Source: an uncultured Bacteroidales bacterium (lineage in GTDB: Bacteria; Bacteroidota; Bacteroidia; Bacteroidales; UBA932). Taken from it: a DNA stretch of 44,402 nt. The stretch spans positions 1 to 44,402 of the forward strand of contig CAJONI010000001.1 in the NCBI GenBank assembly GCA_905235995.1, in the 5' to 3' direction. Positions 2,089 to 27,652 of the stretch are shown in pieces. Under the pieces are notes generated by a model, which ran no database searches, was not told the DNA's origin, and saw only the letters and a program-made list of their open reading frames with translations. The position numbers and the translations under genes are program-made. Position 1 is the first letter of the stretch. Each line of letters opens with the position of its first letter.

Positions 2089-3876
2089 GTGGCCCAACGG
2101 CAAGACTATATAATAAGCAAATCCTTCAGGACATATCTCACTGCGACTGTCCTGACGCTGGTCATCGAGCAGCTCTGCCTGATCTCCGACAGTATCATCA
2201 TGTCCCATCTCGTAGGGCCCGACGCCATGTCGGCCATCAACCTGATGGGACCTTTCGGGATGATAATCAGCGTGGTGTTCTTCCTGTTCTCGGTGGGTGG
2301 CAGCATCCTGGCTGGAAAGGCCATAGGCCGGCAGGATTTTACCAGGGCCCGCCAGGTGTTCACCGTATCGGTCGCTGCCGGCCTGGTCGCCTCGGCCGCC
2401 ATCATCGCGATCTGTCTGCCATCGCTGACCCAGATCGTCCAGTCGCTCTGTCCTGAAGAACACCTGCAGCCTTACCTGCGTGACTATATGTGGATGTACA
2501 TACTGATGACTCCGCTAATCACGCTCTCCGGCACGCTGAAACAATTTACTGGCGTGGATGGCAGTCCGACCGTTGTAACAAGGGCTGTCATCCTGACCGT
2601 AACACTTAACATAGTCTTCGACCTGCTCCTGGTTTCCGGCTTCGGCATGGGACTCGACGGTTCGGCACTGGCCACGGGCATTGGCGAACTGGGAGCGTCT
2701 GCCATAATGCTCCAGTATGTCTTCTCCCCGCGCAGTTCGCTGGGATTCGAGAGACACGTTCCCAATTGGAAAGAATTGCTCCTGGGCAGCGTCAGGGAGA
2801 GTTCCTCCCTTGTGCTGGGCATCATAATACTTCCTCCCATTATGCTGGGCGTCAACCGTATAGTCCTGAACGCCCAGGGCTCGGACGGCGCTTTCATCCT
2901 TTCGATATGCAACCAGTCCCTGTCCTTTACGATGCTGGTCCTCGCCGGTTGCGGCAACGCCCTCTCGGCATTGGGCAGCGTGATGATAGGAGAAAAGGAC
3001 TACCAGGGCCTGAGGATGCTCTTCTCCCACGCCTTCAGGCTTACTATCTCCTTCACCGCCCTGGTGACCGCCGTCATACTCATCTGGCCCGACGCCCTGG
3101 CGTCGCTGTTCGGCGGCTCCACCCAGCATTGGAGGGACCTGTGCCGTACTCCCCTGCGCGAATACTCGCTGGTATTCCTGCCCTATGCCGTCTACATGAT
3201 CAGCCGTTTCATCTACCTGCTGACAGACCACCGCGGGCTCAGCACCATCCTGGGCACGATGACCTTCGTGCTGTTGCTGCCCGCCATATGGATAATGGCC
3301 AGTTGGATTCCCGGGCACCTCTGGCTCGCCTACCCCACCGTAGCCTTGATTACCCTGGTCTTCCAGCTCGTATCGGTGACATGGATTTCCAGTAGGGAAA
3401 AGAACGACGTATACTGGTTTACGCTCATTCCCAAGGATGATGACGCCACCAACAAGAAGAGCCTGTCGATAGCCTACGACCGCTCCGACCTTGAGGACAG
3501 CCTGCTCCAGATCAACGATTACCTGAAGGGGCTTTCCCTGTCAGATACTATGGTGTTCCGTACAAGCCTCGTGGTGGAGGAACTCGCCAAGAACATCAGC
3601 TTACACGCTGTGACGCATCCCCGCCAATCCCAACGCTTCGACCTGATCTTATGCATGGACCACGACCGAAGCCTCAACCTGGTGGTGAAGGACGACGGTA
3701 CGCCTTTCGACCCCATGTCCCAGGAACCGAGGCAGTACACGGCCGAGGAACTTCTTGACATGGACCCCTCGGAGTTGAGATTCGGCCTGCTGCTGGCCAA
3801 GAACAGCTGCTCCGAGATGAGCTACCGTGCCATGTACGGGCTCAATGTAACCTACGTAACCATTAAGGAGGAATAA
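2089..3876 (+). CDS. MATE-family exporter fused to an anti-sigma-type HATPase domain
   Basis: Residues 1 to about 445 form a MATE multidrug/metabolite exporter with about 12 hydrophobic segments, normally driven by Na+ or H+. Residues 455-595 are soluble and look like an RsbW/SpoIIAB-type histidine-kinase-like ATPase (HATPase_c_2). The N box is VVEELAKNISLHA (E497/E498, N502), the G1 box is DDGTPFDP (D536, G537), and a FGLLLAKN segment stands where the G2 lid is expected. No histidine phospho-acceptor domain is visible. The start is a GTG at 2089; a stop at 2068-2070 in the same frame and no nearer upstream start fix it, and the next Met (2200) would remove a membrane helix. The stop is 4 bp before the ABC ATPase ATG, whose RBS (AAGGAGG) lies inside this gene. 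It may export the NRPS product under ATP-sensing or partner-switching control; that is inference. Confidence 0.88.
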   Translation: MAQRQDYIISKSFRTYLTATVLTLVIEQLCLISDSIIMSHLVGPDAMSAINLMGPFGMIISVVFFLFSVGGSILAGKAIGRQDFTRARQVFTVSVAAGLVASAAIIAICLPSLTQIVQSLCPEEHLQPYLRDYMWMYILMTPLITLSGTLKQFTGVDGSPTVVTRAVILTVTLNIVFDLLLVSGFGMGLDGSALATGIGELGASAIMLQYVFSPRSSLGFERHVPNWKELLLGSVRESSSLVLGIIILPPIMLGVNRIVLNAQGSDGAFILSICNQSLSFTMLVLAGCGNALSALGSVMIGEKDYQGLRMLFSHAFRLTISFTALVTAVILIWPDALASLFGGSTQHWRDLCRTPLREYSLVFLPYAVYMISRFIYLLTDHRGLSTILGTMTFVLLLPAIWIMASWIPGHLWLAYPTVALITLVFQLVSVTWISSREKNDVYWFTLIPKDDDATNKKSLSIAYDRSDLEDSLLQINDYLKGLSLSDTMVFRTSLVVEELAKNISLHAVTHPRQSQRFDLILCMDHDRSLNLVVKDDGTPFDPMSQEPRQYTAEELLDMDPSELRFGLLLAKNSCSEMSYRAMYGLNVTYVTIKEE

Positions 3877-3880
3877 GACC

Positions 3881-4552
3881 ATGATTGATTTCAAGGGTAT
3901 CCACAAGACCTATCCCGGTGAAGTTCCCCTCCACGTCCTCAAGGGAGTGGATCTCCATATCGACGAGGGAGAGCTGGTCAGCATCATGGGAGCCTCCGGT
4001 TCAGGAAAGAGCACCATGCTCAACATCATGGGCATACTCGACGATTACGACGAGGGCGAGTATCTTCTTGAGGGCAAGCTGGTGAAGAACCTTGACGACA
4101 GGACCGAAGCTATCTACCGCAACAAGCTGATAGGCTTCATCTTCCAGTCGTTCAACCTGATATACTACAAGAACGCCATGGAGAACGTGGCCCTGCCGCT
4201 ATATTACCGGGGCGTGAAGCGCAAGGAACGCAACGATCTGGCCATGGAGTACCTGGACAAAGTCGGCCTGGCCGAACACTGGCATCACCTGCCGATGCAG
4301 CTCTCCGGCGGACAGCGCCAGAGGGTGGCCATCGCCAGGGCACTGATCACCCACCCCAAGATCCTCCTGGCCGACGAGCCGACCGGAGCACTGGACAGCA
4401 AGACCACGCAGGAGGTGATGGACATGCTTTGCGAAGTGAACCGCAAGGAGGGGCAGACAGTGGTCATCGTCACCCATGAGCAGGAAATCGCCAACCAGAC
4501 AGACCGGAGGATATTCTTCAAGGACGGTGTGATATACAAGGACGAGAGATGA
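3881..4552 (+). CDS. MacB/LolD-type ABC transporter ATP-binding protein
   Basis: A 223-residue nucleotide-binding subunit. It has Walker A GASGSGKST (residues 37-45), Q-loop FIFQSFNLI, signature LSGGQRQRVAIARAL, Walker B ILLADEP followed by TGALD, and the switch His in VIVTHEQE. The length is normal for the LolD/MacB/FtsE subgroup. It is preceded by a strong RBS (AAGGAGG) and overlaps the next permease by 4 bp (ATGA), so the two are translationally coupled. With the two FtsX-like permeases and the membrane-fusion protein downstream it forms a MacAB-like tripartite exporter. The family moves substrates such as peptides, siderophores or lipoproteins from the periplasm outward using TolC. No outer-membrane factor is encoded here. 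Confidence 0.95.
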   Translation: MIDFKGIHKTYPGEVPLHVLKGVDLHIDEGELVSIMGASGSGKSTMLNIMGILDDYDEGEYLLEGKLVKNLDDRTEAIYRNKLIGFIFQSFNLIYYKNAMENVALPLYYRGVKRKERNDLAMEYLDKVGLAEHWHHLPMQLSGGQRQRVAIARALITHPKILLADEPTGALDSKTTQEVMDMLCEVNRKEGQTVVIVTHEQEIANQTDRRIFFKDGVIYKDER

Positions 4553-5778
4553 ACGACCTGATCAACGAGGTGCTGACCTCCATGAAGAGCAACCGCCAGC
4601 GCATCATGCTGACGGGCTTCGCCATCGCCTGGGGCATGTTCAGCCTTGTGGTGATGCTTGGGTCGGCAGGAGGTATACAGAAAGGCATGTACAGGAGTTC
4701 TTCCCTCGACATGACCCAGTACACCACCATCACCACCGGCAAGACGTCCGTGGCATGGAACGGCATGGGCACCGACAGGCTGGTGAAGCTTACCATCGAC
4801 GACGCCGAGGCCCTCGAACGGCAGCGCTTCGACCATGTCGACGACGTCTTCCCCGTTTTCAGCCAGCCCACCAAGGTTTCCACCGTAAACGATTATCTGT
4901 CAACCTCCCTTACCGGATGCACTCCGGGCTACATAGTCTCGCAGTACAACAAGATCATCCGGGGCCGCGACATCAACGACACCGACCTGCAGCAGCGCCG
5001 CAAGGTGTGCGTGCTTACCGACCGTATCTGCCAGGAGCTGTTCGGCGAGGGAAACCCAGTCGGCCGGCGCCTGAACTTCGACGGCAATTCCCTGCTGGTG
5101 GTCGGAGAATGCGAGAGCCTCCACGAATACAGCATAGTCGGGGCATATGCGCCCATCTCCACGGTGATGGCTATGTACAGCCCCGACGATCCTGCCCTGG
5201 GCATGATACAGGTGACGTATTCCGGCATCGAGGAGCTCGGAGAGCTGCAGCGCCTGACCTCCAGCCTGCGGGACTTCCTTTCCCCGCGCCTGATGTGCAG
5301 TCCGAAGGACAACAAGGCCCTGGTGATCAGGAACGACTTTGAAACGGTGATAGGCTTGTCGAAGATACTGACCTATATGGGCTTCTTCGTGTGGATCATA
5401 GGCATAGCCACCCTGATCGCAGGAGTGGTTGGCGTATCCAACATCATGCTCATCACGGTGCGCGAACGCACCCGCGAGCTGGGCGTGCGCAGGGCCATGG
5501 GAGCGAGCCGCGGGAGCATAATCCGGCTCGTGCTCCTGGAATCGGTCATCATTACCGCGATCTTCGGATATATTGGCATGATGCTCGGCATCGGGCTGAC
5601 CCAGCTGCTGTCGGCTACCCTGGGCGGCACCATCCCCTACTTCACCGACCCTACCGTGAGTTTCAGTACCATAATAGGATGTAACATAATCATGATTCTC
5701 GCAGGAATCGCAGCAGGATACGTGCCTGCGCGAAGGGCTTCCAACTGCAAGATAGTGGACGCGCTGATAGCAAGATAA
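4549..5778 (+). CDS. MacB/FtsX-type ABC transporter permease, first of two
   Basis: A 409-residue permease with the MacB layout. One N-terminal membrane helix (about residues 18-38, after KSNRQRIMLTGFAIAWG) is followed by a large periplasmic domain of about 230 residues (MacB_PCD-like) and three C-terminal helices (around 275-405). The conserved cytoplasmic loop VRERTRELGVRRAMGAS contacts the ATPase, and the tail is GYVPARRASNCKIVDALI. It overlaps the ATPase gene by 4 bp and is followed by a second, clearly homologous permease, so the exporter is probably a heterodimer in the membrane. Confidence 0.93.
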   Translation: MNDLINEVLTSMKSNRQRIMLTGFAIAWGMFSLVVMLGSAGGIQKGMYRSSSLDMTQYTTITTGKTSVAWNGMGTDRLVKLTIDDAEALERQRFDHVDDVFPVFSQPTKVSTVNDYLSTSLTGCTPGYIVSQYNKIIRGRDINDTDLQQRRKVCVLTDRICQELFGEGNPVGRRLNFDGNSLLVVGECESLHEYSIVGAYAPISTVMAMYSPDDPALGMIQVTYSGIEELGELQRLTSSLRDFLSPRLMCSPKDNKALVIRNDFETVIGLSKILTYMGFFVWIIGIATLIAGVVGVSNIMLITVRERTRELGVRRAMGASRGSIIRLVLLESVIITAIFGYIGMMLGIGLTQLLSATLGGTIPYFTDPTVSFSTIIGCNIIMILAGIAAGYVPARRASNCKIVDALIAR

Positions 5779-5789
5779 ACATTGTACAC

Positions 5790-5795
5790 AGGAGG
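5790..5795 (+). promoter_or_regulatory. Ribosome binding site that fixes the second permease start
   Basis: AGGAGG at 5790-5795 lies 4 nt before the ATG at 5800. An upstream in-frame TTG at 5782 precedes this site and would give an unlikely N-terminus, so 5800 is the preferred start. Confidence 0.6.
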
Positions 5796-5799
5796 GCTT

Positions 5800-7059
5800 A
5801 TGTTTGACAAGGATTTCTGGCAGGAGGTTTGGGAGACCATCAGAAGGCAGAAGATGCGTTCGCTGATGACCGCCTTCGGCGTATTCTGGGGCCTGGTGAT
5901 ACTGATGTTCATGGTAGGCGCAGGAGTGGGTTTCAACAGCGGCGTCACTGCGCAGACGAGGGCCATGTCGAGCAATACAGTGGGGTATTTCACCTTCCCT
6001 ACCACTATCGCATATGGTGGTTTTGAGCGCGGACGCCATTGGGTCATCACCGATGCAGACATCCATGCCATAGAGCAGAAGTTTCCCGGCTCCATCCATG
6101 ACCAGGTGCTTGTACTGGAGGTTCCTTCCCCCGGAGAGACCCAACTGGCAAAGAGCGATTCCTACAGCGACATGGTCATCGTGGCTGGCGCAACCGACAA
6201 TTATCCCTCCATATCTCCCCTCCGTATCCTCGACGGACGCTTCATCAGCAAGTTCGACCTGATCGAGAGCCGGAAGGTCTGCGTGCTTGGAGAGCATCTG
6301 GCCGCCAAGCTATTCCCGGGCCAGGAAGCCGTAGGGAAGGACGTCCATCTGGAAGGATTCAGCTGCCGGGTCGTGGGCGTAATGCGGAAGACTAGTCCGC
6401 TCTTCCACATGGGGCCCAATGAATCGGAAAGCCTCTACCTTCCTCTCACCACCGCACAGCTGCTCTACAACCATTTGAACGAACAGAACATAGCCTTGTT
6501 CCATCTGAACGAGGAATACCCTTCCGACAAGTATTACAGGCAGTTCGGAGACCTGCTCTACCAGAGACATTCCATCGCCCCAAACGATGCTGAAGCCATG
6601 TTCCAGGTCGACCTGAAGGCACAACTCAGCCAGATGAGCGTCGTGGGCGACGGGATCAACCTGCTGGTGTGGCTCGTGGGCCTGGGCACCTTGCTTGCCG
6701 GACTGATAGGCATAGCCAACATCATGATGGTAACCGTAAAAGAGCGTACTCAGGAAATCGGAGTGCGCCGCGCCCTGGGAGCGATGCCCTCCGCAATAAT
6801 ACGCCAGATCATGTGCGAGAGCCTGGTGCTCACCCTGGCCGCCGGCATAGTCGGACTTGTGGCTGGATTCTGGGGGGTGTATCTGGTAAGCAGCCGCCTC
6901 GCCACTGAAGAAGGCAGCCTGTTCGACAACCCGCACGTACCGTTCATCGCCGCCATCGCGGCCCTGCTCGTCCTCGTGGCAGGAGGCCTTATCGCGGGAT
7001 GGATACCCGCAAAGCGCGCGCTTTCGATCAAGGCGATAGAAGCACTCAGAGAAGAATAG
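5800..7059 (+). CDS. MacB/FtsX-type ABC transporter permease, second of two
   Basis: A 419-residue paralogue of the preceding permease: N-terminal cytoplasmic amphipathic stretch, helix FGVFWGLVILMFMVGAGVG, periplasmic MacB_PCD-like domain, then three helices. The conserved coupling loop is VKERTQEIGVRRALGAMP and the end is GWIPAKRALSIKAIEAL. It begins 21 bp after the first permease. Tandem MacB-type permeases with one shared ATPase gene are common in Bacteroidetes operons. The two copies have diverged well beyond a recent duplication. Confidence 0.93.
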   Translation: MFDKDFWQEVWETIRRQKMRSLMTAFGVFWGLVILMFMVGAGVGFNSGVTAQTRAMSSNTVGYFTFPTTIAYGGFERGRHWVITDADIHAIEQKFPGSIHDQVLVLEVPSPGETQLAKSDSYSDMVIVAGATDNYPSISPLRILDGRFISKFDLIESRKVCVLGEHLAAKLFPGQEAVGKDVHLEGFSCRVVGVMRKTSPLFHMGPNESESLYLPLTTAQLLYNHLNEQNIALFHLNEEYPSDKYYRQFGDLLYQRHSIAPNDAEAMFQVDLKAQLSQMSVVGDGINLLVWLVGLGTLLAGLIGIANIMMVTVKERTQEIGVRRALGAMPSAIIRQIMCESLVLTLAAGIVGLVAGFWGVYLVSSRLATEEGSLFDNPHVPFIAAIAALLVLVAGGLIAGWIPAKRALSIKAIEALREE

Positions 7060-7075
7060 TAAAAATCAAAATGAT

Positions 7076-8176
7076 ATGAAAAAGATCGTTAAAGCCGTTG
7101 TCTGGTGTCTCGTAGCCGTGTTCGTGGTCTATACGTTCTATTTCCTCTGGAAGCAGTCGCAGCCCGAACCGGAAGTCTACGAACTGATCACTCCGCAGAC
7201 ACGCGACATCCAGAAGACGACCGTGGCCACAGGAAAGCTTACGCCCCGCCGCCAGGTGAGCGTAAAACCTCAGATCACCGGCATCATCACCCAGATACTC
7301 GTAAAGCCGGGCGAGATGGTCAAGGCCGGACAGGAGCTGGCGCACATCAGGATCATTCCCGACATGGGCCTTCTCAACACAGCCCAGACGTCCGTCGAAA
7401 GCGCCCGTATCGAACTGGAAGAGCTGCAGCGCCAGTGGAACCGCGCCAGAAAGCTTTACGAGAAGGAAGCAATCAGTACGGAAGAGTACGAGCTGGCGGA
7501 GACACACTACAGGATAGCGAAAGAGAAGCTCGCCGCCGCCGAAGCCCAGTACGAAGTGGTTACCAAGGGCTCGTCGAAACGTTCAGGCAGCATAAATACC
7601 ACGATAGTCACCAGCCCCATGACAGGCATGGTGCTCAACGTTCCCGTAAAGGAAGGCTCATCGGTATCCGCGACCAGCATGTTCTCCGACGGTACCACCA
7701 TCTGCACCGTGGCAGACATGAACGATGTGATGTTCAAGGGCAGCATCGACGAGACTGAGGTGGCGCGGCTCCGCGTGGGTATGCCCACCGTCCTGGTCCT
7801 CGGAGCGATGCAGGACGTCGCCATCCCCGCCGAACTGGAGTATATCTCACCGGAAGGGGAAGAGAAGAACGGCGTGATAAAATTCGAACTGTGGGCGGCC
7901 GCCACCATCCCCGACGGCATCGACGTCCGTTCCGGCTACAGTGTCAACGCCAGGGTGGTCACGGAGGAGCACGATGACGTACTCTCCATAGAGGAATCGT
8001 CCGTGGTGTTCGACGGAGGCTCGGCATACGTCTGGCGCCTCACCTCCGACCCGGAGGACATCGAGACACAGAAATGGGAACGCGTGCCCGTAAAGGTGGG
8101 CATAGGCGACGGTATCTACGTGGAAGTGCTGGAAGGGGTAAGTGAAGGAGAATTTCTTCGCGGGGTCAGGAGATAA
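7076..8176 (+). CDS. Membrane-fusion (periplasmic adaptor) protein, MacA/HlyD family
   Basis: A 366-residue adaptor protein with one N-terminal membrane anchor (about residues 5-24, no lipobox). A biotinyl-lipoyl-like half motif (TRDIQKTTVATGKLTPRRQVSVKPQ is the first strand region) leads into a coiled-coil hairpin at about 105-165 (rich in E, Q, R and A). The second lipoyl half and beta-barrel follow (TIVTSPMTGMVLNVPVKEGS), ending in a membrane-proximal domain. It should join the two permeases to an outer-membrane TolC-like channel encoded elsewhere. Its stop is only 3 bp before the NRPS ATG, and AGGAGA inside its last codons serves as the NRPS RBS. That is the strongest positional link between exporter and synthetase. 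Confidence 0.93.
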   Translation: MKKIVKAVVWCLVAVFVVYTFYFLWKQSQPEPEVYELITPQTRDIQKTTVATGKLTPRRQVSVKPQITGIITQILVKPGEMVKAGQELAHIRIIPDMGLLNTAQTSVESARIELEELQRQWNRARKLYEKEAISTEEYELAETHYRIAKEKLAAAEAQYEVVTKGSSKRSGSINTTIVTSPMTGMVLNVPVKEGSSVSATSMFSDGTTICTVADMNDVMFKGSIDETEVARLRVGMPTVLVLGAMQDVAIPAELEYISPEGEEKNGVIKFELWAAATIPDGIDVRSGYSVNARVVTEEHDDVLSIEESSVVFDGGSAYVWRLTSDPEDIETQKWERVPVKVGIGDGIYVEVLEGVSEGEFLRGVRR

Positions 8177-8179
8177 GGC

Positions 8180-11100
8180 ATGATGGAATACGACCCCTCC
8201 GAAACCTTCGTCACCCTTTTCAGGAAGCAGGCAAGGCTCCACCCGGAAGCTACGGCGGTGGTGGATGAAGACAGCTCCATCACCTACGCGGAACTCGACA
8301 GGAAGTCGGATATCCTGGCCAGGAACCTGCTGCAGGCCGGTGTGGAGCAGGACAGCGTCGTGGCCATCATGCTGCCCAGAAGAAAAGAGTTCGTGGTGGC
8401 GGCGCTGGGAGTCTTCAAGGCTGGAGGAGCTTATATCGCCCTGGACAGTGAATATCCTGCAGAGCGCCTGCAATACATGCTGGAAGACTCTGAAGCGAAG
8501 CTGATTATCAATAACACGGACCTGCTGGAAGGGCCGGACTGCGGGCCTGTGGACAACAGCAGGCCGGAATCCCTGGCCATCATGATCTATACCTCCAGCT
8601 CCACGGGGAAGCCCAAGGGAGTGATGATGGAGCACAGGAACCTGACTAATTGCGTCCTTGCCCTAAGCCCGATCATGAAAAGCGGCGAACGTTGGGCTGA
8701 ATTCGTAAGTTTCAGTTTCAGCGCATCAGTGATAAGCACGTTCGGCCCTCTTGGAGCGGGAGCGACGCTTCATATCCTGTCGTCCGACATGCGACGCAGC
8801 CTGGACGGCATGGCCCGGTATTTCATGGACAATGACATCACCGCGATTCTCCTGGGCCCACAGGTGGGCGTTGACATGCTCACCGGTTTCGACAATCTTC
8901 ATCTCAAGAAGATGATCGTGGGAGGAGAGGCCATGAAGCCCGTCAAGCTTCGTACTGCGGGAGTAAAGGTCTTCAACATGTATGGCCTCTCGGAATTCCT
9001 GCCGGTATGCTACCATGTGGTGGAGCAAGGAAAGGATTATGACAGGATTCCCATAGGGCGGCCTCTGCCCGAGGTCACCATGTTTGTCGTCGACGAGGAG
9101 GGTAGGCTCATGCCCCGGGGCGAGGCTGGAGAATTGTGCCTTGTGGGAAAGATGCTGACGCGCGGCTACTGGAAACAGGAGGGACTGACGAAGGAAAAGT
9201 ATACGGAATGTCCCTTCATGCCGGGAAAGCGCATGTTCCATACCGGCGACCTGGTACGATGGAACGAAGACGGGGACATGGAATATCTCGGGCGTATTGA
9301 CAGCCAGGTGCAGCTGAGGGGTTTCCGCATAGAACTGGGAGAGATAGAGAACCGTGCAGGCAAGTTCGGGGGCATCAGGCAGGCGGCGGCGAAGCTTCAT
9401 GACGAGCGCTTCCTCTGCCTCTACTACACCGCTTCCGTTCCCATCGACAAGGAAGAGCTCAAGGAATTCATTTCCGAAGCGTTGCCCGGGTACATGGTAC
9501 CCACTGTCTTCAAGCAGCTCGACAGCATGCCCCTCACTCCCAGCGGCAAGATAGACAGGAAGCTGCTGCCTGAGCCGATAGTCGAACTGGAGGAAATCGT
9601 GCCTCCCGCAACGGAGACGGAGCAAAAGCTGTTCGACATCGTGGCTGAAATGCTGAATATGACCGACTTCGGAGTTACCAACAACCTGATATCCCTGGGC
9701 TTTTCCTCCCTGTCCGCGATGCGCCTGACTCTGGCTGTCCACAATCGCATGAAGGCACAGCTGAAAATGGCCGACATAATGAAGGACCCCACGGTCCGCG
9801 GCATCGCCGCCAGCCTTTCTTCTTCCGTCCCAATCCTTCCGTCATACGAGTGTCGCGAGCTGTACCCGCTGACCGGGAACCAGCGTGGCGTATACATCGA
9901 CTGGGAGATGAACCGCGGCACCACCCAGTACAACATCGCCACATCATACCGTTTCGCCTCCGCAGATGCCTCCAGGCTCGCCGGGGCGCTCAGGGCAACA
10001 GTGGACGTCCATAGCTACCTTAAGACACGGCTGGCGATGGCAGATGGCGCCGTGATGCAGGAGCGGCACGACGACGAACCCGCCGAGGTGATTCTGACAA
10101 CTCTGGACCATGAACCCGGAGAGGCTTACTTCCACGAGAAGGTTCGTCCTTTCGACCTCTTCAAAGACAGGCTATACCGCCTTGAGCTCATCACGACTCC
10201 CACGGCTGTCTTTCTGTTCATGGACATACACCATATCATCTTCGACGGCCTGTCGGCTTCCATTTTCATGGGCGACATGCTCAAGGCCTGTCAGGGCGAA
10301 CAGTTGCTTCCTGAAAGCCATCAGTTCTACGACTTCGCCCTTTACGAGCAGGAGATGGCTGGCGGAGAAGCCATGGAAGAGGCGGAGAAGTACTTCGACG
10401 GCATGGTTTCCGAGGCTGTGGCGCTGAGTTTCCCCGACTCCGCAAAGCCGGACGGCAAGGCATACGCCAAGCTCGAAACCATGGTTCCGGCCGCGTCCAT
10501 CGACGCTTTCTGCCATGCCAACGGCGTGACCGCCAGCAGTTTCATGCAGGCAGCCTTCACCGAGGCTATGAGCCGCCTGACACGTGAGGAACGCGGACTG
10601 CACCTCACTCTCAGCAATGGCAGGAGTTCTGGTCCCGAACTGATGTCGAGCGTCGGCATGTTCGTCAGGACGATACCCGTCGTGCGGCCTTCGACTGCCG
10701 AAGGAGTCACGACCAGCGACTTTGTAAAATCCATGCATGCACAGCTCCAGCAGAGCTATACGCATGAGTACTACCCCTATACCCGTTTCGTGGAACGCCA
10801 CGGGATACGTGCCGGGATGATGTTCGTCTATCAGGGCGGCGTCCTCGAAGACGGCAGGATCGCGGGTGCTGACCAACTCTCGCTGGATCCCGACCTGGCC
10901 AAGTTCCCGATCACGGTGACCGCCTATCCCAGGAATGACGCCTATGTCATCATGGTCGAGTATGATGGCAGGCTCTACGGGTGCAGGGACATGGCGCTGC
11001 TGGCCAATGCCATAGGCAACATGTCGCTCAGCTTGGCTTCCGGGAAACTGCTGTCTGACTCCAGGACCGTCAGCGCCGTGGAAGAGGCGCGCCTGCTCGA

Positions 11101-14100
11101 GCTGGCCAAAGGCGGGACGCCCGTACACGATGCCTCCGAAACCCTGGTCGACATGTTCCGCCGTCAGGCGGAGAAGACTCCCGACGCACTGGCCGTAGCC
11201 TTCCTGGACAGGAGGTTGACCTACCGTGAACTGGACGAGCTGACCGACCGCCTGGCCGCCTGCCTTATCGACAGGTACGGCGTCCAGCCGGAGGAGGCCG
11301 TGGGCGTGATGACGGAGCGTTCTGAGCTGCTGGTCGTCTATCCCCTTGCCATCATCAAGGCCGGCGCCGCATACATGCCTCTCGATTTCAACTTTCCTTC
11401 CGGACGCCTTGCCTTCATGTGCGAAGACGCCGGAGTCAGGCTGATACTCAGCGAAGGCTCACGCGTCCAGGAAGCCATGCCCGGCCATGCCGGAACGGTG
11501 TTTACAAGCGACATGCTGGCGTCACTGACGGAAGAGGGCGCCGCCGGCATCGAATCCCGCCGAAAGGCTTCGCCGGACGACAGATATGTCATACTCTACA
11601 CTTCCGGCTCCACAGGACAGCCCAAGGGAGTGTCGCTCACCCAGGGCAATATCGTGAACTTCTGCCACTGGTGCGTCAGGGAGTTCAATCTCACGCCGGA
11701 AGACAGGGTGGCCGCATACGCCCACTTCGGCTTCGACGTACACCAGGCCGACTTCTGGCCGGCCCTGAGCTGCGGCTCATCGGTTTTCATCATCCCGTCC
11801 GACCTGCGCCTGGACCTGCCGGCCCTTCACGAGTATATCGTAAAGGAGAAACTGTCGTATGCCAACATGACCACCCAGATAGGTCATCTCTACGCTTCCC
11901 TGTATCCGGAGTCCTCCCTGCGGGTGCTCTCGGTTGCCGGTGAGAAACTGCCTGCCGTCAGAAAGCCGGAATACCGCATGTACAACTGCTACGGCCCTAC
12001 AGAGGCCACGGTCTATGCCACTGCGCTCTCCCTGTATGCCGACTACGACGACGATTCCATCGGCCGTCCTCTGGACAACTGCAGCATCTACATAGTCGAC
12101 GACAGGCTCCAGCTCGTGCCTCATGGACTTCCCGGAGAACTGCTCATCGCAGGGGCGGGCGTGGCCCGGGGGTACCTGAACAGTCCCCATCTGACCGCAG
12201 ACAAGTTTATAACATTCAATGGTTTGAGAGCCTACCGCAGCGGCGACCTGGCCCGCTGGCGCGAAGATGGAGCCATCGATTTCCTGGGCCGCATCGACAG
12301 TCAGGTGAAACTGCGCGGCCTCCGCATCGAACTTGGTGAAATCGAAAACAGGGTCATGTCGTATGACGGCATCCGCCAGGCGCTCGTCGATGTCAGGGAA
12401 ATCAACGGGGTCAGGAATCTCTGCTGTTATTACACCGTAAAGGACGGCATGGCCGTGGATGAGCAGCTGCTGCAGGAACATCTGAAGGACGGCCTTGCCG
12501 ATTACATGTTACCCTCGGCCTTCATCCGGCTGGACGGGATGCCCCTCACGCCCAACGGCAAGATCGACCGCAAGCGTCTGCCGGAACCGGTGATGACCGG
12601 CGCTGCCGTTTTTATCGAACCGACAGGCGACGCCGAGCGTGCCGTTTCCGCCGCCATGCAGCAGGTATTGGGCATGGACGCCCCCGTGGGCGCCCTCGAC
12701 GGCTTCTACGAACTGGGAGGTGACTCCATCAAGGCCATCCGCCTGGTGAGCGTCCTCCGCCAGAAGGGGCTTTCAGTGCAGGTTTCGGACGTGATGAAGC
12801 TGAAGACGGTGCGCGCCATAGCCGCTGCAGTGCAGGACGATACCATAAGCATCAGCCAGGAACCCTGGAGCGGTGAGCTTCGCGACAGCGTCATCTTCTC
12901 ATGGCTGAAGGACCAGCATCTGGCCGACATGGGACGCTTCCAGCTGTCCATGCTTCTCGGCTGCCGCGAGCGGGTGGACGCCGCCATGCTCCAGCAGGCA
13001 GTGGATGCAGTGGTATTCCACCACGACATGCTGCGCGCCGTAATCCGTGACGGTCGGCTGTTCGTGCGCGGGGCGGAGACGAGAATCCCTGTCACGGAGC
13101 GGGAGCTGGGCCCGACGGACACGATCGGCGAGGCATGCTCCCGTATCGAAGAGTCGATGGACATGGCAGAAGGCCTCTTCCTGCCCGTGCTGCTGCACGC
13201 CGCCGAAGGGGACTTACTCTTCCTGTGCACCCATCATGCCGTGGTCGACGGCGTGTCGTGGCGTATACTGACGGAAGACCTGGAGACCGCCTTCAGGCAG
13301 CTCTCCGAGGGCCTGAGCGTCAGCCTGCCCGCGAAGACAGTCAGCTACCGGGACTACGTGGACGCACAACATGCCTACCGGAACAGCTATCTCCTGGGCC
13401 TTGAACTCCCCTACTGGGAACGCCAGCAGAAGCTTCTGCTACAACTGCCCGTATCTGACGGCAAGGACCTCAACCGCCGATTCGCCCGCATTTCCGTGAA
13501 TCTGAACGAGGCCGACACCCGTGCCTTCTCATCCGCCCGCCTGTCACGCTTCGGCGCTGACGTCAACGACCTGCTGCTGACCGCAGTGGGAAGGAGCTAC
13601 CGCAGGCTGACAGGGATGGACAGCATGTCCGTACAGCTCGAGGGCCACGGCCGCGAACCCATGGGCGCACCCCTCCGCACCGATCGCACGGTGGGCTGGT
13701 TCACCTCCGTATATCCTGTCATACTGAATCTTGGCGGTGACATCCGCCAAGACCTGAGGAACGTGAAAGAGGCCCTCCACCGCGTTCCCGGCAAGGGCAT
13801 TGGCTACAACATCCTCCGTTACGCCGAAGGAGACAGGCCCGTGTCGCTCGACAGGGACCGCGTGCCCCGGACGGGTTTCAACTACCTGGGAGTGATGAAC
13901 GGCGAAAAAGCCCTGACCGGCGGTTTCTTCACCATGATGGATTCCCTGAGGGGATCCCGCATGCGCAAGGAGCATTTCGGACCCCAGCTCGACCTCAACT
14001 GCATGGTCGTGGGAGGCGTCTTCCGCCTGACCCTCGACTACGACGCTGACAAATACAGCCTTGAAGACGCAGAGAGCTTTGCAAACGGCATTCTCCGGGA

Positions 14101-17100
14101 AATCAATGCCCTGACCCGGTATCTCGACAGCCATGAAGAGCAGGAGGTCACAGCCACCGACCTGGGAGAGAACGAATGGACGGACACGCAGTTCAAGCGC
14201 ATCATGGCCGACTACGCTTCCCGGGGCGAGCGCCTGCAGCGCATATACCCGCTGACGCCGATGCAGGAAGGCATCCTGCTGAAGCATCTGCAGGAGCCGG
14301 AGTCATGGGCCTACCGCCTTGTGAGCATCTTCGAGGCGGACTGCAACCCCACCGAAGCGCAGCTACGACGCGTGCTCGGGCGTCTCGCACGGAAACATGA
14401 GGTGCTGCGCACAGCCATCATCCACGATGGCGTGGAGCAGTACCGCCAGGCCATCGTCGACAGAGCACCCGGCCTGAGAATGACAGACCTGAGCCATGAA
14501 AAGAATCCCGAAGAGGCGGTAAAGGCGCTGCGCAGGGACATGCTCACCAATGCCTTCGATCTGCAGCGCAAGCCGCTGATGCAGTTGGTCTGCGCGAAAA
14601 AGTGCGACGAAGGCTGCTACCTGGTAATAGCTACGCACCATATCATAGTCGATGGCTGGAGCCTTCAGCTCTGCCTGGGCGACCTTTTCCGCTTCCTGCA
14701 GGAGGAATTGCATGGCAAAGCCGGTCAAACGGAAGTAGCTGCCAATGATGGTCGCTACGAATCCGCTGTACGCGAGATTCTTACAAAAGACAAGAACAAA
14801 GCCCTGGACTACTGGCGCGGGCTGCTGGAAGGCTACGCGACGAGGGCCGGTATCCCGTCGTGGGGCGAAGTGCCCGCCGCTGAACAGTCGGCTGAAGACT
14901 GGCTTTCCATACAGCTCGACGCCGCCACGACCCGGCGGCTGAAAAAGCTCTGCCAGCAGGAGCAGGCCACTCTGGGCAACGCCGTGGAGCTGGCTTGGGG
15001 ACTGGTGCTCCAAACCTGCAGCCGCACCGATGATGCCGTGTTCGTAAAAGTTGTGTCCGGGCGAGACAACACAGGCACCGATGTGAGCGACATCGCAGGC
15101 CTGTTCATCAACTCCGTACCGGTGCGCGTCCGGACCGGGAAAGACAGCACAGCCCGGCAGATGCTGCACACGCTGCAGCAGCAGGCCGCCGAATCGAACG
15201 CCTGCGACTTCTGCGCCCTTTCGGAAATACAGCAGATGTCGGAGACCGGCGACAGCCTCTTCCAGACCGTGACGGCCTTCGAGAACTATGACAGCGGCTT
15301 AGAGGCACTGAGTTATTCAGATTTCGGGCTGAACATAAGGCCGCTGCTGACCAGGGAAGAGAGTTTCGACGAGATATCCCAGACCGCATACGTCGACGAT
15401 GAGGGCCGGCTGGTGCTGAACATCTCCTTCAACCGGCGGCACTATCGCCGTGTGGAGGTCGAGCGTGTGCTCAGCCTGTTCCGGACGCTGCTGAGCGGAA
15501 TCGTGCAGTCGCCCGACATCCCCCTTGCAACGCTTCCGCTGCTGCATGAGGAAGAAATGAAAGACCTGTCGGCAATCGGCAATGGCGAGACCGGGGAGTT
15601 CGACAAATCCGACACGCTCGTCAGCATGTTCCGCCGCCAGGCAGCCGAAACTCCCGACGGAGTGGCCGTTGTCTTTCAGGACAGGAAGCTTTCCTACCGT
15701 GAACTGGACGAGCTGACCGACCTTCTCGCGGCACAGCTCGTCAGCAGGTATAATGTCCTGCCCGAGGAAGCTGTCGGCGTGATGATAGAGCGTTCCGAAC
15801 TGATGGTCGTCTATCCCCTGGCCATCATGAAGGCCGGAGCCGCCTACATGCCGCTCGACCACAGTTTCCCCGCGTATAGGCTGCAATATATGTGCGAGGA
15901 TGCAGGGGTGCGGCTGATTCTCAGCGAGAAAGACAGGGTACGTGATGCCATGCCGGACTTCCGGGGAGAGGTTTTCACGGCGGACTCCCTGCAGGATCTG
16001 CCCCGACTTGACGGACGGCTGCCTGGGCCGCTGCCGGCATATCGCTATGTAATCCTCTACACCTCAGGTTCCACCGGCAAGCCCAAGGGCGTCGCGCTGG
16101 AGCACCACGGCATAGTGAACTTCTGCCACTGGTACGTGAAGGAGTTCCGCATGACGTCCGATGACCGGTCCCTGGCCTTCTCGAACTTCGGTTTCGACGC
16201 CCACATGATGGACGTATACCCCGCACTGAGCTGCGGCGCGTCAGTCTGGATCATCGACAGCGGAATGCGCATGGACATCGACCGCATGAACCGCTACATG
16301 GAAGAGAATGGCATCAACATCGCCTTCCTCACCACCCAGGTGGGACATCTCTTCGCCTCCTCCATCGAGAACCGCTCCCTGAGGCTGCTCTCCGTCAGCG
16401 GAGAGAAACTGATGCCTGTCAGGAAGCCGCCATACGAGTTCTACAACTGCTGCGGACACACCGAATGCACCATCTACACTACATTCTACAAGATTGAAAG
16501 CGACTACGACTCCCCGGTCATCGGCCGGCCGCTCACCAACTACCGGCTGTACGTCGTCGACCCGTCCATGAGGCTGCTGCCGCGCGGTGTGGCCGGTGAA
16601 CTTATAATCTGCGGCGAAGGCGTCGGGCGCGGCTACCTGAATCCATCTGAAAAAGATGCCGACAAGTTCACGGACTTCATGGGGCAGCGCGCCTACCGCG
16701 CCGGAGACCTGGTACGCTGGAACGAGGATGGCCAGATGGAATATCTCGGCCGTATCGACAATCAGGTGAAGCTGCGCGGCCTCCGCATCGAGCTGGGAGA
16801 GATCGAGGCCTGTGCCTCCCGTTTCGACGGTATAGCCATGGCGGCGGCTTCCGTCAGGAGGATGGGTGGATCGGACGGCCTGTGCCTCCATTTCAGCGCA
16901 AAGCCTGAGGGGACGGTCGTCGACAGGGACGCATTGAAGGCTTTCCTCGCCGAAAGCCTGACAGACTACATGGTGCCTGTCGCCTACGTGCAGCTGGACA
17001 AGATGCCGCTCAACGCCAACGGCAAGATAGACCGCAGGCTTCTGCCTGAGCCTCAGGGCCCTGCATCGAGCTTCGAGGCCCCGGCCACGGCGTTGGAGGA

Positions 17101-18610
17101 ACAGCTCTCCGAAGTGTTCTGCAGCCTGCTTGGCATAGGGCGCCTTGGCGTGACGGACGAGTTGCGCTCCGCAGGCCTCAACTCCATTCTCGCCATGAAG
17201 GCCAGGATCGCGCTCCAGGAGAAGCTCGGCCTTGCCATCGAAGTATCTGCCATCCTGAAACTCGGCAACATACGCAATATCGCGGAACACGTCGAGGGCG
17301 GCGGCGCCAGGCGCAGCGTGCTGTTCCACCACCACCCCGTGCAGGAACTGTATCCCGTACCCAAGACCCTGGAAACCTACATGGCCGACTACAAGGCCGG
17401 CAAAGCCACGTTTACCGTCATGTCGGGCATACGCATGGAAGGAGCCCGTCTCGAGGCGATGGAGAAGGCCCTGCGGGCCGTATTCGCGGCCAATCCGAGC
17501 ATGAAGACCCGCACTGCATACATTGACGGCAAGGCCGTGATGCAGCGCGACGATTCCCTGGAAATACCCATTTCCAGGCACAGGCTGGACTTCGAGCCCG
17601 ACGCTGAACAGTTGTTCGGATATTGCCGTGAACCCCTGCAAATAGTAGGCGGCTTCCTGGGAAACTATGCGCTGATTGAGACCCCGGCCCATGGTTTCTT
17701 CGTTTTCATGGGGTCACATGGAAACATGGACGGTGCCTCAATGAACCTGATGCTCATGGAGTTCTGTTCAGCTCTGGAGGGGGGCGTGCCTGAGCCCGAG
17801 AAGTACACCGTGTTCGACTATGCGCTCGACGAGCAGGATTACCTCGGCTCCGAGGCCATGCGCGAAGACGAAGAGCATTATCGCAGGCTGACGGACGGCT
17901 TGTTGGAGAATGTGCTGCCCTTCGATGATGGGCCCGAGGATGAAACGGGCTACGCTGAAATGGTCAAGGTGGCCTTCGACAAATCTGCCACCGACAGCTA
18001 TTGCGAACGTAACCATGTCCGCCAGAGCAGCTTCTTCGCCAATCTCTACATGCAGGCCTTCGGGCACATGGGTGCCTGGGACAGGGTGATGGTCTCAAGC
18101 CTGCACAGCAACCGCACAAGTGCGGAGCTTGCCGGCATGATGGGCCTGGCCATGCGCAACTTCCCCCTTGTCTGCCGCCATGTCGTCCCTGTCGATGATC
18201 CCGGCTTCCGGACGGCCGTCCTTGCTGGAGTCAAAGACATAGAGCGACAGGTAGATGATGCGATGAACATCAGTTTCTACGACTATTACGGCTCCAACGG
18301 GCTGGGACGCAAAAGCCCCAATATCGCAGTGAAAACGGCTTTTGTATATTACATCGGCCTGTCGGACGGACTGGCGGATTTCCTCGGGCAGCACGACGGC
18401 TCAGCACATGAGATCCAGCTCATCGGTAGCGAATCCGACCGGAAGCCGGTGCGAGAGCTGGCCATGGAGCCTTTGGTGGCCTATGTCAACCGTAATGCCG
18501 ACGGAAACTACGAGGTGACGCTGAAATACAACCACCGCTGCTACCACACAGCCACCATCATGAGGATGGCGGACTACATGAGCGCTTATTTCGACAAGGC
18601 TACTTCCTGA
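8180..18610 (+). CDS. Three-module nonribosomal peptide synthetase (A-T-C-A-T-E-C-A-T-C)
   Basis: A 3,476-residue NRPS; domains were assigned by eye. A1 (about 8-470) has YTSSSTGKPKG and SGKIDRK. T1 has its presumed phosphopantetheine Ser in LGFSSL (S510). C1 (about 555-970) has HHIIFDG at 684-690. A2 (about 985-1465) has YTSGSTGQPKG. T2 has LGGDS (S1516). E (about 1565-1985) has HHAVVDGVSWRIL at 1685, EGHGRE, TVGWFTSVYPV and GKGIGYNILRY. C2 (about 2017-2460) has YPLTPMQEGIL, typical of condensation after epimerisation, and HHIIVDG at 2153. A3 (about 2476-2950) has YTSGSTGKPKG. T3 has GLNSI (S3002). The terminal C (about 3050-3470) has SHGNMDGAS at 3179-3187. No thioesterase or reductase domain is present. 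It should make a short product: starter acyl, a D-residue, then a third residue. Building-block identities cannot be read reliably. Confidence 0.97.
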   Translation: MMEYDPSETFVTLFRKQARLHPEATAVVDEDSSITYAELDRKSDILARNLLQAGVEQDSVVAIMLPRRKEFVVAALGVFKAGGAYIALDSEYPAERLQYMLEDSEAKLIINNTDLLEGPDCGPVDNSRPESLAIMIYTSSSTGKPKGVMMEHRNLTNCVLALSPIMKSGERWAEFVSFSFSASVISTFGPLGAGATLHILSSDMRRSLDGMARYFMDNDITAILLGPQVGVDMLTGFDNLHLKKMIVGGEAMKPVKLRTAGVKVFNMYGLSEFLPVCYHVVEQGKDYDRIPIGRPLPEVTMFVVDEEGRLMPRGEAGELCLVGKMLTRGYWKQEGLTKEKYTECPFMPGKRMFHTGDLVRWNEDGDMEYLGRIDSQVQLRGFRIELGEIENRAGKFGGIRQAAAKLHDERFLCLYYTASVPIDKEELKEFISEALPGYMVPTVFKQLDSMPLTPSGKIDRKLLPEPIVELEEIVPPATETEQKLFDIVAEMLNMTDFGVTNNLISLGFSSLSAMRLTLAVHNRMKAQLKMADIMKDPTVRGIAASLSSSVPILPSYECRELYPLTGNQRGVYIDWEMNRGTTQYNIATSYRFASADASRLAGALRATVDVHSYLKTRLAMADGAVMQERHDDEPAEVILTTLDHEPGEAYFHEKVRPFDLFKDRLYRLELITTPTAVFLFMDIHHIIFDGLSASIFMGDMLKACQGEQLLPESHQFYDFALYEQEMAGGEAMEEAEKYFDGMVSEAVALSFPDSAKPDGKAYAKLETMVPAASIDAFCHANGVTASSFMQAAFTEAMSRLTREERGLHLTLSNGRSSGPELMSSVGMFVRTIPVVRPSTAEGVTTSDFVKSMHAQLQQSYTHEYYPYTRFVERHGIRAGMMFVYQGGVLEDGRIAGADQLSLDPDLAKFPITVTAYPRNDAYVIMVEYDGRLYGCRDMALLANAIGNMSLSLASGKLLSDSRTVSAVEEARLLELAKGGTPVHDASETLVDMFRRQAEKTPDALAVAFLDRRLTYRELDELTDRLAACLIDRYGVQPEEAVGVMTERSELLVVYPLAIIKAGAAYMPLDFNFPSGRLAFMCEDAGVRLILSEGSRVQEAMPGHAGTVFTSDMLASLTEEGAAGIESRRKASPDDRYVILYTSGSTGQPKGVSLTQGNIVNFCHWCVREFNLTPEDRVAAYAHFGFDVHQADFWPALSCGSSVFIIPSDLRLDLPALHEYIVKEKLSYANMTTQIGHLYASLYPESSLRVLSVAGEKLPAVRKPEYRMYNCYGPTEATVYATALSLYADYDDDSIGRPLDNCSIYIVDDRLQLVPHGLPGELLIAGAGVARGYLNSPHLTADKFITFNGLRAYRSGDLARWREDGAIDFLGRIDSQVKLRGLRIELGEIENRVMSYDGIRQALVDVREINGVRNLCCYYTVKDGMAVDEQLLQEHLKDGLADYMLPSAFIRLDGMPLTPNGKIDRKRLPEPVMTGAAVFIEPTGDAERAVSAAMQQVLGMDAPVGALDGFYELGGDSIKAIRLVSVLRQKGLSVQVSDVMKLKTVRAIAAAVQDDTISISQEPWSGELRDSVIFSWLKDQHLADMGRFQLSMLLGCRERVDAAMLQQAVDAVVFHHDMLRAVIRDGRLFVRGAETRIPVTERELGPTDTIGEACSRIEESMDMAEGLFLPVLLHAAEGDLLFLCTHHAVVDGVSWRILTEDLETAFRQLSEGLSVSLPAKTVSYRDYVDAQHAYRNSYLLGLELPYWERQQKLLLQLPVSDGKDLNRRFARISVNLNEADTRAFSSARLSRFGADVNDLLLTAVGRSYRRLTGMDSMSVQLEGHGREPMGAPLRTDRTVGWFTSVYPVILNLGGDIRQDLRNVKEALHRVPGKGIGYNILRYAEGDRPVSLDRDRVPRTGFNYLGVMNGEKALTGGFFTMMDSLRGSRMRKEHFGPQLDLNCMVVGGVFRLTLDYDADKYSLEDAESFANGILREINALTRYLDSHEEQEVTATDLGENEWTDTQFKRIMADYASRGERLQRIYPLTPMQEGILLKHLQEPESWAYRLVSIFEADCNPTEAQLRRVLGRLARKHEVLRTAIIHDGVEQYRQAIVDRAPGLRMTDLSHEKNPEEAVKALRRDMLTNAFDLQRKPLMQLVCAKKCDEGCYLVIATHHIIVDGWSLQLCLGDLFRFLQEELHGKAGQTEVAANDGRYESAVREILTKDKNKALDYWRGLLEGYATRAGIPSWGEVPAAEQSAEDWLSIQLDAATTRRLKKLCQQEQATLGNAVELAWGLVLQTCSRTDDAVFVKVVSGRDNTGTDVSDIAGLFINSVPVRVRTGKDSTARQMLHTLQQQAAESNACDFCALSEIQQMSETGDSLFQTVTAFENYDSGLEALSYSDFGLNIRPLLTREESFDEISQTAYVDDEGRLVLNISFNRRHYRRVEVERVLSLFRTLLSGIVQSPDIPLATLPLLHEEEMKDLSAIGNGETGEFDKSDTLVSMFRRQAAETPDGVAVVFQDRKLSYRELDELTDLLAAQLVSRYNVLPEEAVGVMIERSELMVVYPLAIMKAGAAYMPLDHSFPAYRLQYMCEDAGVRLILSEKDRVRDAMPDFRGEVFTADSLQDLPRLDGRLPGPLPAYRYVILYTSGSTGKPKGVALEHHGIVNFCHWYVKEFRMTSDDRSLAFSNFGFDAHMMDVYPALSCGASVWIIDSGMRMDIDRMNRYMEENGINIAFLTTQVGHLFASSIENRSLRLLSVSGEKLMPVRKPPYEFYNCCGHTECTIYTTFYKIESDYDSPVIGRPLTNYRLYVVDPSMRLLPRGVAGELIICGEGVGRGYLNPSEKDADKFTDFMGQRAYRAGDLVRWNEDGQMEYLGRIDNQVKLRGLRIELGEIEACASRFDGIAMAAASVRRMGGSDGLCLHFSAKPEGTVVDRDALKAFLAESLTDYMVPVAYVQLDKMPLNANGKIDRRLLPEPQGPASSFEAPATALEEQLSEVFCSLLGIGRLGVTDELRSAGLNSILAMKARIALQEKLGLAIEVSAILKLGNIRNIAEHVEGGGARRSVLFHHHPVQELYPVPKTLETYMADYKAGKATFTVMSGIRMEGARLEAMEKALRAVFAANPSMKTRTAYIDGKAVMQRDDSLEIPISRHRLDFEPDAEQLFGYCREPLQIVGGFLGNYALIETPAHGFFVFMGSHGNMDGASMNLMLMEFCSALEGGVPEPEKYTVFDYALDEQDYLGSEAMREDEEHYRRLTDGLLENVLPFDDGPEDETGYAEMVKVAFDKSATDSYCERNHVRQSSFFANLYMQAFGHMGAWDRVMVSSLHSNRTSAELAGMMGLAMRNFPLVCRHVVPVDDPGFRTAVLAGVKDIERQVDDAMNISFYDYYGSNGLGRKSPNIAVKTAFVYYIGLSDGLADFLGQHDGSAHEIQLIGSESDRKPVRELAMEPLVAYVNRNADGNYEVTLKYNHRCYHTATIMRMADYMSAYFDKATS

Positions 18611-19170
18611 TTTCCGTAGCAGATGCTATAGACGTAACGACCTTCGGGGCCCGACAAAGTGATCAGCTCCGAAGGCCTTTCGTCGAGTACATGCCTCATG
18701 TCATCGACCAGTCCCCGTCCGGAGCACTTCAGCACGGCTTCCTTCATGGTCCAGAGACGGATGAATTCCATGTCGGGGCGCGGGGAACGCAATATCCGTT
18801 CTTTCTCCCGTCCGTTCATCACCTGGTCCAGCAGGGACTCGTCGTATTCGCGGACGCTCTCTATGTCGACTCCCACCGGACGGTCGCTCAGGACGCAGAC
18901 GGCGGCCTCCCGGCAGTGGCTCAGGTTGAAATGGATGCCGGCATGGCCTGAAAGGCGGGGCTTGCCGAATTCTCCGTATTCGAACAACGGAGGCTCGGCT
19001 ATCCCAAACTCCTCACGAAGTCCCTTGCACAGAAGGAGATAGGCCATGGCACTCAGTTTCCGTTCCCGTTCGAAGCGGAACTGCAGGGCCTGCTCCCTGC
19101 GCTGCGGGGACAGCAGTGGCAGCGAGGACTCGAAATCGAAATTCTTTATGTCGTCTTCCAGATATACCAT
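18586..19170 (-). CDS. Sfp-type 4'-phosphopantetheinyl transferase
   Basis: A 194-residue PPTase that would transfer phosphopantetheine from CoA to the T-domain serines of carrier proteins, including the NRPS opposite it. The metal-binding motif is VGVDIESV (D102, E104) and the second is WTMKEAVLK (W140, K143, E144, K148). FNLSH around residue 81 is the usual substrate-proximal motif. Its 3' end overlaps the NRPS 3' end by 25 bp in the convergent direction. On its own strand it follows the first ABC ATPase gene by 21 bp, so it is probably transcribed with the amino-acid importer. It could also be the housekeeping enzyme for fatty-acid ACP, since I cannot see whether the genome has another. 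Confidence 0.93.
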   Translation of the reverse strand: MVYLEDDIKNFDFESSLPLLSPQRREQALQFRFERERKLSAMAYLLLCKGLREEFGIAEPPLFEYGEFGKPRLSGHAGIHFNLSHCREAAVCVLSDRPVGVDIESVREYDESLLDQVMNGREKERILRSPRPDMEFIRLWTMKEAVLKCSGRGLVDDMRHVLDERPSELITLSGPEGRYVYSICYGNQEVALSK

Positions 19171-19191: not shown

Positions 19192-20280
19192 TTACTTGTC
19201 CGGAAGCAGGCACTTCACCCGGAATCCAAGTGTGGTGGGTTCCTCTATGATGTCCTTTGCGAGGGCACGGACAGGTGCCAGAAGCTGAGGGTCGAGCCCT
19301 TTCAAAGGCGACTCGCCGAGGCCTGCGATCATGAAGTCGAGGGCAGTAACTTCCGACAGCTCGCTGAAGGTGAGGCGTAGCGTCAGGGGACGGTAATCCT
19401 TCAGCACATTGAACGCCATCAGGTCGACGATACGGTCTATGGCCCTGCGGCTGTCCACAAGGTTGTATTTGTTGCAGAACTGCGCCATTTCGGAACGCAT
19501 GCCGAGGACGTCGAAGCGGGGGCCATCCACCTCGAACACCAGCTTGTGTATGCGCTGCACAAAAGCCCTGGTGGCGCTGTGGACCGGCGCATCGAAGATC
19601 TGCTGCGGAGTGCCTTCCTCGTGGATGCGGCCTTCATACATGAAGAAGACCCTGTTGCTCACATCGTGCGCGAACTTCATCTCGTGGGTGACGATGAGCA
19701 TGGTCATGCCCTCCTTCGCCAGCTGGCGGATGACGCTGAGCACCTCTCCCACCATCGTGGGATCGAGGGCCGACGTGGGCTCGTCGAAGAGGATCACTTC
19801 GGGATGCATTGCCAGGCAACGTGCTATGGCCACACGCTGCTTCTGCCCGCCCGACAGCTCGTCGGGCATCGCCTGGGACTTCTCGGCCAGACCCACCTTC
19901 TCCAGCAGCTGCATCGCCTCCTCCTCCGCCGCCTGTCTGGTAATGTCTTTAAGCAGCAGCGGCACCTTGGTGATGTTGTCAAGGATGGAGAGGTGTTCGA
20001 AGAGGTTGAAGCTCTGGAACACCATGCCCACCTTCTGCCTCAGCCTGTTCAGGGAATAGCCTTTGGCAAGGATGTTCTCGCCGTCGACCAGGATCTCGCC
20101 GCTGGTGGGCGGGTCCATCATGTTGATGGCACGCAACAGGGTGCTCTTGCCGGTGCCGGAGGGGCCTATGATGCTTATCACCTCGCCCTGGCTGATCTCG
20201 CAGTTGATGTCCTTGAGTACCTCCAGCCTTGAACCGTCAGGTTTTACGAAAGTCTTTGTCAGATGTCTTATGCTTATCAT
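19192..20280 (-). CDS. Amino-acid-type ABC importer ATPase with C-terminal extension (system 1)
   Basis: Residues 1-240 form a GlnQ/HisP-type ATPase: Walker [11 protein letters not shown]-loop [12 protein letters not shown], signature [16 protein letters not shown], Walker [14 protein letters not shown], switch IVTHEMKFA. The family couples to polar amino acid permeases. GlnQ-like ATPases usually end near 240-250 residues. This one has about 115 more (245-362), including [11 protein letters not shown] and [20 protein letters not shown], matched by the same extension in the paralogue at 25015-26103. The extension is not obviously the NIL domain of MetN. It starts 4 bp after the stop of the fused binding-protein/permease gene (20285-21742), so they form an operon. 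Confidence 0.92.
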
Positions 20281-20284
20281 GGTC

Positions 20285-21742: not shown

Positions 21743-21764
21743 ATTCAATGTCATTTCCTTCCAA

Positions 21765-27596: not shown

Positions 27597-27652
27597 AATC
27601 CGCGAATTTAGCAATTTTCAAAATGTATCATTATAATTTTTTATATAAATTA

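Follow-up and report, generated by a model that had tools for sequence, protein, structure and literature searches.

The window (the whole 44,402-nucleotide stretch of DNA analyzed) encodes a MATE transporter joined in one protein to an ATP-binding domain of apparent RsbW/SpoIIAB type, and this fusion is confirmed as a real protein architecture, with chance and artefact excluded. Its recurrence in dozens of rumen/gut Bacteroidales, often by NRPS genes, suggests that export is switched in these bacteria by a known type of signaling module. The fusion gene has a GTG start and forms a single open frame without an internal stop; it is co-oriented with an NRPS gene, and a phosphopantetheinyl transferase gene is nearby:

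2089–3876, plus strand: MATE–HATPase fusion gene, 595 aa (full-length AlphaFold model with mean pLDDT 84 and pTM 0.84)
2089–3408, plus strand: MATE half, residues 1–440, assigned to the DinF subfamily from best PDB sequence matches, Foldseek and residue counts
3454–3873, plus strand: C-terminal HATPase_c_2 domain, residues 456–595, assigned to the RsbW/SpoIIAB type from Pfam and predicted fold
3881–4552, plus strand: ABC transporter ATPase of MacB/LolD type, beginning 4 nt after the fusion gene
4549–5778, plus strand: MacB-like permease 1 (profile match)
5782–7059, plus strand: MacB-like permease 2 (profile match)
7076–8176, plus strand: HlyD/RND-type periplasmic adaptor (profile match)
8180–18610, plus strand: NRPS of 3476 aa, with four condensation, three adenylation and three carrier stretches
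18586–19170, minus strand: 4'-phosphopantetheinyl transferase, at the far end of the run

The location claimed in the earlier note on this DNA, directly upstream of a biosynthetic exporter operon, is borne out by the ABC/HlyD/NRPS run that starts immediately after the fusion. The window also contains two ABC importer pairs (19192–21754 and 25015–27614), each consisting of an ATPase and an SBP_bac_3/BPD_transp_1 fusion protein in which a family-3 solute-binding domain is joined to a permease.

The fusion scores 96.6 bits against PF01554 (MatE; cut-off 24.9) and 98.0 bits against NCBIfam TIGR00797, below the cut-off of that model (147.4). The best PDB sequence matches of the MATE half are DinF-BH (BH2163) and then PfMATE, and the top Foldseek matches of the full-length model are all MATE proteins, with target-normalized TM-scores mostly of 0.8–0.86 and the two-lobed MATE fold present. 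D34 aligns with an Asp that is Asn in 5c6n and corresponds to DinF-BH D40; across the 89 fusions it is conserved in 85, with N174 and D178 each in 83 and T/S196 in 84. On these residue and sequence matches, the MATE half of the window is predicted to be a DinF-type antiporter with the cation-coupling residues of the N-lobe in place.

The C-terminal domain matches HATPase_c_2 (PF13581; Pfam cut-off 27.4) with 29.0 bits for the whole sequence, rising to 33.1 bits when residues 447–595 are searched alone. It carries an N box (E497/E498...N502), a G1 box (D535-DG-TPF) and a C-terminal signature (Y579-x4-G584-x-N586), and four ATP-site residues are intact: E498 (catalytic Glu) and N502 (Mg-binding Asn) in the N box, and D535 and G537 in the G1 box. 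Among all PDB sequences, a search with the domain profile matched a single protein, SpoIIAB (1tid; E 0.0094), whose N-box Glu/Asn pair and G1 Asp-x-Gly fall in the same columns as those of the family profile. An AlphaFold2 model of the domain, built with 16 family members (pLDDT 83.8), had SpoIIAB, RsbW, UsfX/SigF complexes and SiaB as its 19 best Foldseek matches in the PDB (E 6.7e-8 to 1tid). VIA-align gave Z 14.8 to RsbW 6m37_C (rmsd 2.1 over 115 residues) and Z 13.2–14.8 across SpoIIAB/RsbW/UsfX/SiaB, with the Rv1364c RsbW domain and LvrC, a response regulator of Leptospira, in the same range. A sensor histidine kinase was considered and rejected: a HisKA domain was looked for and not found, and such kinases reached a structural Z of at most 7.6, against 13–15. 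By predicted fold, the domain belongs specifically to the anti-sigma kinase branch (RsbW/SpoIIAB type). This cytosolic domain directly follows TM12 in the full-length model, in which confidence is low chiefly at the termini and in the long ATP-lid region (541–565). Of a G2 box, only a partial motif (FGLLLAKN) is seen. The earlier note had proposed a MATE exporter fused to an RsbW-like ATPase domain, with an N box at E497/E498 and N502 and a G1 box DDGTPFDP; these residues are where it placed them (the G1 box being D535-D-G537-T-P-F-D-P), and the fold scores to SpoIIAB and RsbW are good.

Gene neighbors across the family were compared, within 8 kb, with those of 40 MATE-only genes taken largely from the same genomes. 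NRPS domains were found near 21/40 fusion clusters versus 0/40 controls (p = 1.3e-8), and PP2C/SpoIIE or STAS genes near 8/40 versus 1/40 (p = 0.014, uncorrected), with any member of a cluster scored, which tilts these counts slightly to the fusion side. When each cluster is reduced to one representative, NRPS is retained at 18/40 (p = 3e-7) and PP2C at 4/40, which is not significant; the PP2C/STAS enrichment near fusions is modest. In unbiased clustering of neighbors, NRPS came top with 23 clusters, followed by a PP2C-containing group with 11; 7 of the 20 members of the latter are without a PP2C match. The genes named in the earlier note (NRPS, STAS and PP2C) were all encountered beside relatives of the window fusion.

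Several loci bring these genes into close contact. On one strand of L166, the most compact of them, a STAS gene (7101–7403) overlaps the fusion (5318–7108) by 8 nt and an NRPS lies 10 nt on; L165 encodes, also on one strand, a PP2C-HATPase, a STAS protein, one gene, the fusion, one gene and an NRPS. The order is STAS, one gene, fusion and NRPS in L168, and PP2C, STAS, ligase, fusion and NRPS in L136, while PP2C-STAS is divergent from the fusion in L062. A STAS and PP2C set next to the fusion is complete in L062, L136, and L165, and partial in L146, L166, and L168. The fusion overlaps the NRPS in L264, from a genome of another family. In Prevotella sp. MA2016 (L095/L138), a non-MAG record, the fusion is canonical and adjoins NRPS and AMP ligase genes; a PP2C gene lies about 4 kb off. 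STAS proteins adjoining fusions keep a phosphoacceptor-type Ser in [S/A]-S-x-G-L. In four other loci, a conserved Cys-rich protein of about 270–295 aa (CxxxCP...CC motif) is encoded directly upstream of the fusion (L056, 9664–10515; L090, 737–1537; L091, 6059–6916; L096, 6070–6954), in three of the four between the fusion and a PP2C gene.

Elsewhere in the genome of the window, STAS genes are present on three contigs (C33, C65, and C3) and SpoIIE genes on four (C33, C65, C37, and C52). On C33 (L012, 3159–13000), a PP2C-HATPase and a STAS gene are arranged head to head with a PP2C and a STAS gene, and this complete partner-switch set (two STAS, two PP2C) is divergent from, and adjoins, another NRPS; a MATE gene was not found on C33. 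The same genome encodes a second fusion (L011, 6682–8427, on contig C74) with 29% identity, which has His in place of N502 and Ala in place of D535; it lies two genes from an HtpG/HSP90-like gene, with no NRPS nearby.

Because a switch domain and a transporter are combined within NRPS operons, sometimes with STAS/PP2C genes, post-translational control of export, or else sensing of export, is the best explanation of the fusion. Our preferred reading, held tentatively and at slightly less than even confidence, is that the protein is an exporter dedicated to the NRPS product, its domain acting as the kinase arm of a STAS/PP2C switch and STAS docking gating export. In this mechanism, the DinF-type MATE antiporter would export the NRPS product of the same operon, with the RsbW/SpoIIAB-type ATP-binding domain permanently tethered to its cytosolic C terminus. 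In members with an intact site, that of the window included, the domain would bind a STAS protein and, with ATP, phosphorylate it; a sensor PP2C (SpoIIE-type) phosphatase would reset the STAS protein, and STAS docking or release at the cytosolic face of the transporter would gate export. Architecture, sequence family, predicted fold, conservation, selection and gene linkage are observed; that the domain binds ATP, contacts and phosphorylates a STAS protein and gates export, and what is exported, we infer. However, the 44.4 kb contig of the window carries neither STAS nor PP2C genes, most fusion loci have none within 8 kb, and the STAS genes near NRPS clusters may serve separate PP2C-HATPase proteins. 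The more general claim, that secondary transporters are gated directly by a built-in anti-sigma-type serine kinase and that PP2C-set STAS docking licenses the release of nonribosomal peptides, we regard as possible rather than probable.

The main alternative is that the exporter acts as a sensor: whether the MATE half is transporting or occupied would set the kinase activity of the domain, and the phosphorylated STAS protein would report substrate load to a regulator, whether of NRPS cluster transcription or of a stress response, such that the protein would be a transceptor and not a gated pump. Anatomy and neighbors fit this arrangement equally, RsbW-type kinases normally signal via STAS proteins (PMC8256260), and PP2C sensor proteins with Cache/HAMP domains are present in these genomes. 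The adjacent PP2C proteins, however, have sensor domains of their own, and the analysis identified neither a sigma factor nor another regulator as the target; we consider a sensory role unlikely.

ATP-site conservation bears on a further possibility, that the domain is not a kinase and instead stabilizes, dimerizes or docks, with nucleotide sensing at most. Across the 89 fusions, G537 and N586 are retained in all, E498 and K534 in 86 each, D535 in 63, and N502 in 58. The strict E/N/D/G set is complete in 56/89, including the window fusion, and absent from 33/89; E498, K534, G537, and N586 are kept almost always regardless. The domain is under purifying selection with dN/dS of about 0.13, the median being 0.125 for canonical pairs and 0.13 for others, compared with 0.10 and 0.16, respectively, in the MATE half. 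Thus, about one third of members have lost ATP-site residues (N502 and/or D535) from a domain that is still under selection, so the domain may also dock without kinase activity. This degenerate-site subset shows that some members can probably do without the kinase step, much as pseudokinases do, and the loss counts against the gated-exporter proposal insofar as kinase activity would not be essential to the family. Against a purely non-kinase role stand the majority with a complete set and the residues retained near partner genes: all 14 fusions near PP2C/STAS have the ATP-site residues, with Asn or Ser accepted at 502, versus 46/75 of the others. This association has p = 0.004 by gene and 0.08 by cluster, the latter not significant, and the cluster-level figures are those to use, as genes within clusters are not independent. 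By cluster, an intact set also goes with NRPS proximity (17/24 canonical clusters versus 4/16 others; Fisher p = 0.009). On balance, a non-kinase role for the domain appears rather unlikely.

A role of the domain in regulating the neighboring ABC exporter, or else the NRPS, with the MATE half serving mainly as an anchor at the membrane site shared by assembly line and export, would account for the MacB/HlyD genes and NRPS that accompany the fusion in the window, L181 and L183. Yet an ABC exporter is absent from the surroundings of most NRPS-linked fusions, with HlyD near only five fusion clusters, and the N-lobe residues of the MATE half are conserved in more than 90% of members, which makes an anchor role improbable.

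The 89 fusion genes, from the genus of the window, Prevotella and other gut Bacteroidales, form 40 clusters at 70% identity. Fusions were identified in 10/40 genomes of the window's genus and, in the genus of Prevotella sp. MA2016, matches at E ≤ 1e-18 occur in up to 61/398 genomes, almost all of them in frames of 575–630 aa. Samples drawn at the level of the class (395 genomes), the order (393) and the phylum (395) contained one further clear fusion beyond the window's genome (G1094), and the other matches are different open frames, mostly stand-alone (about 140–200 aa) or PP2C-sized (>700 aa); elsewhere in Bacteroidales and Bacteroidota the fusion is rare. A scan of 84,980 genomes from all phyla returned 15 loci, all in Bacteroidales, using two narrow patterns that a wider range could escape; the profile searches covered Bacteroidota. 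The record titles of these loci are mostly rumen and horse feces, and they include the named strain Prevotella sp. MA2016. A scan of IMG/VR found no close relatives. A plasmid tblastn match (H1, Aeromonas) with 96% query cover was rejected, as it comprises a MATE gene of normal length and an opposite-strand gene and is not a fusion. Some Prevotella copies have an in-frame stop (G728:C16, G847:C27, G689:C46, and G661:C66), and the gene may sometimes be lost. Two fusions with degenerate ATP sites (L184 and L187) share a strand and are separated by about 4 kb; no NRPS was found in their vicinity.

In a tree with MATE-only proteins drawn largely from the same genomes, one side of a branch (support 100) is made up of the MATE halves from the 40 clusters, and the intact-site HATPase domains are split from stand-alone and PP2C-fused RsbW domains, also with support 100. 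In these unrooted trees, a single origin fits both halves and would be the simplest reading. A near-ortholog of the window fusion in a sister genome has 82% identity, an identical junction, and dN/dS of 0.17 relative to the window in both halves. This ortholog (G001:C13; L025, 8742–9161, and L054, 8923–10554) has an N-terminal frameshift near residues 47–64, which is either a MAG error or real, and its MATE–HATPase junction is intact despite it. That frameshift is the one point in favor of a frameshift, assembly join or chance fusion as the source of the architecture, a possibility that the earlier note had raised for a frameshift or join and that is refuted by the recurrence of the fusion in 89 genes and 40 clusters, by the unbroken frame in the window, by the junction shared with the ortholog, by both halves each forming one side of a branch, and by their similar dN/dS, leaving it next to no probability.

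Partner switching is known mainly as a means to free sigma factors. If our preferred reading is true, the output of a partner switch would be membrane transport instead of transcription, and an exporter family with the kinase side of the switch beside NRPS genes would extend partner switching to direct transporter control. The family would also offer a handle on the release of little-studied nonribosomal peptides by rumen/gut Bacteroidales. A search of the open-access literature found no description of a MATE–RsbW fusion.

Among known systems, RsbW, SpoIIAB, and UsfX have their fold, N box and G1 box in common with the fusion domain, as well as the STAS/PP2C company seen in some fusion loci. 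They are, however, soluble proteins that stand alone or are joined to PP2C/REC, whereas the fusion domain is joined to MATE, has a conserved Y-x4-G-x-N C-terminal signature and has no known sigma partner. DinF-BH and PfMATE resemble the whole MATE half, including the positions of D34 (DinF-BH D40) and N174/D178/T196, but stop after TM12 with no C-terminal domain, where the fusion continues. ClbM (structure 4z3n) is a presumed exporter of the product of its NRPS(-PKS) cluster. As the MATE transporter of the colibactin cluster (PMC7949106), it shares with the fusion a location among NRPS(-PKS) genes but has no regulatory ATPase domain. In TciR of Vogesella indigofera, a REC-RsbW protein governing indigoidine pigment production in a bacterium with no RsbV homolog (PMC12826045), an RsbW-like domain also occurs in a fusion, although in a response regulator and not a transporter. 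In SypE/SypA of Vibrio fischeri, an RsbW-like kinase has a STAS protein as its target and the output is post-transcriptional and does not run through a sigma factor (PMC12826045, PMC10120452), as proposed here, but the kinase is a soluble biofilm regulator without a transporter. SulP/SLC26 transporters, which have a STAS domain fused C-terminally (PMC8256260), likewise place a domain of partner-switch type on the cytosolic end of a secondary transporter; they carry the STAS partner, whereas the MATE fusion would carry the kinase side.
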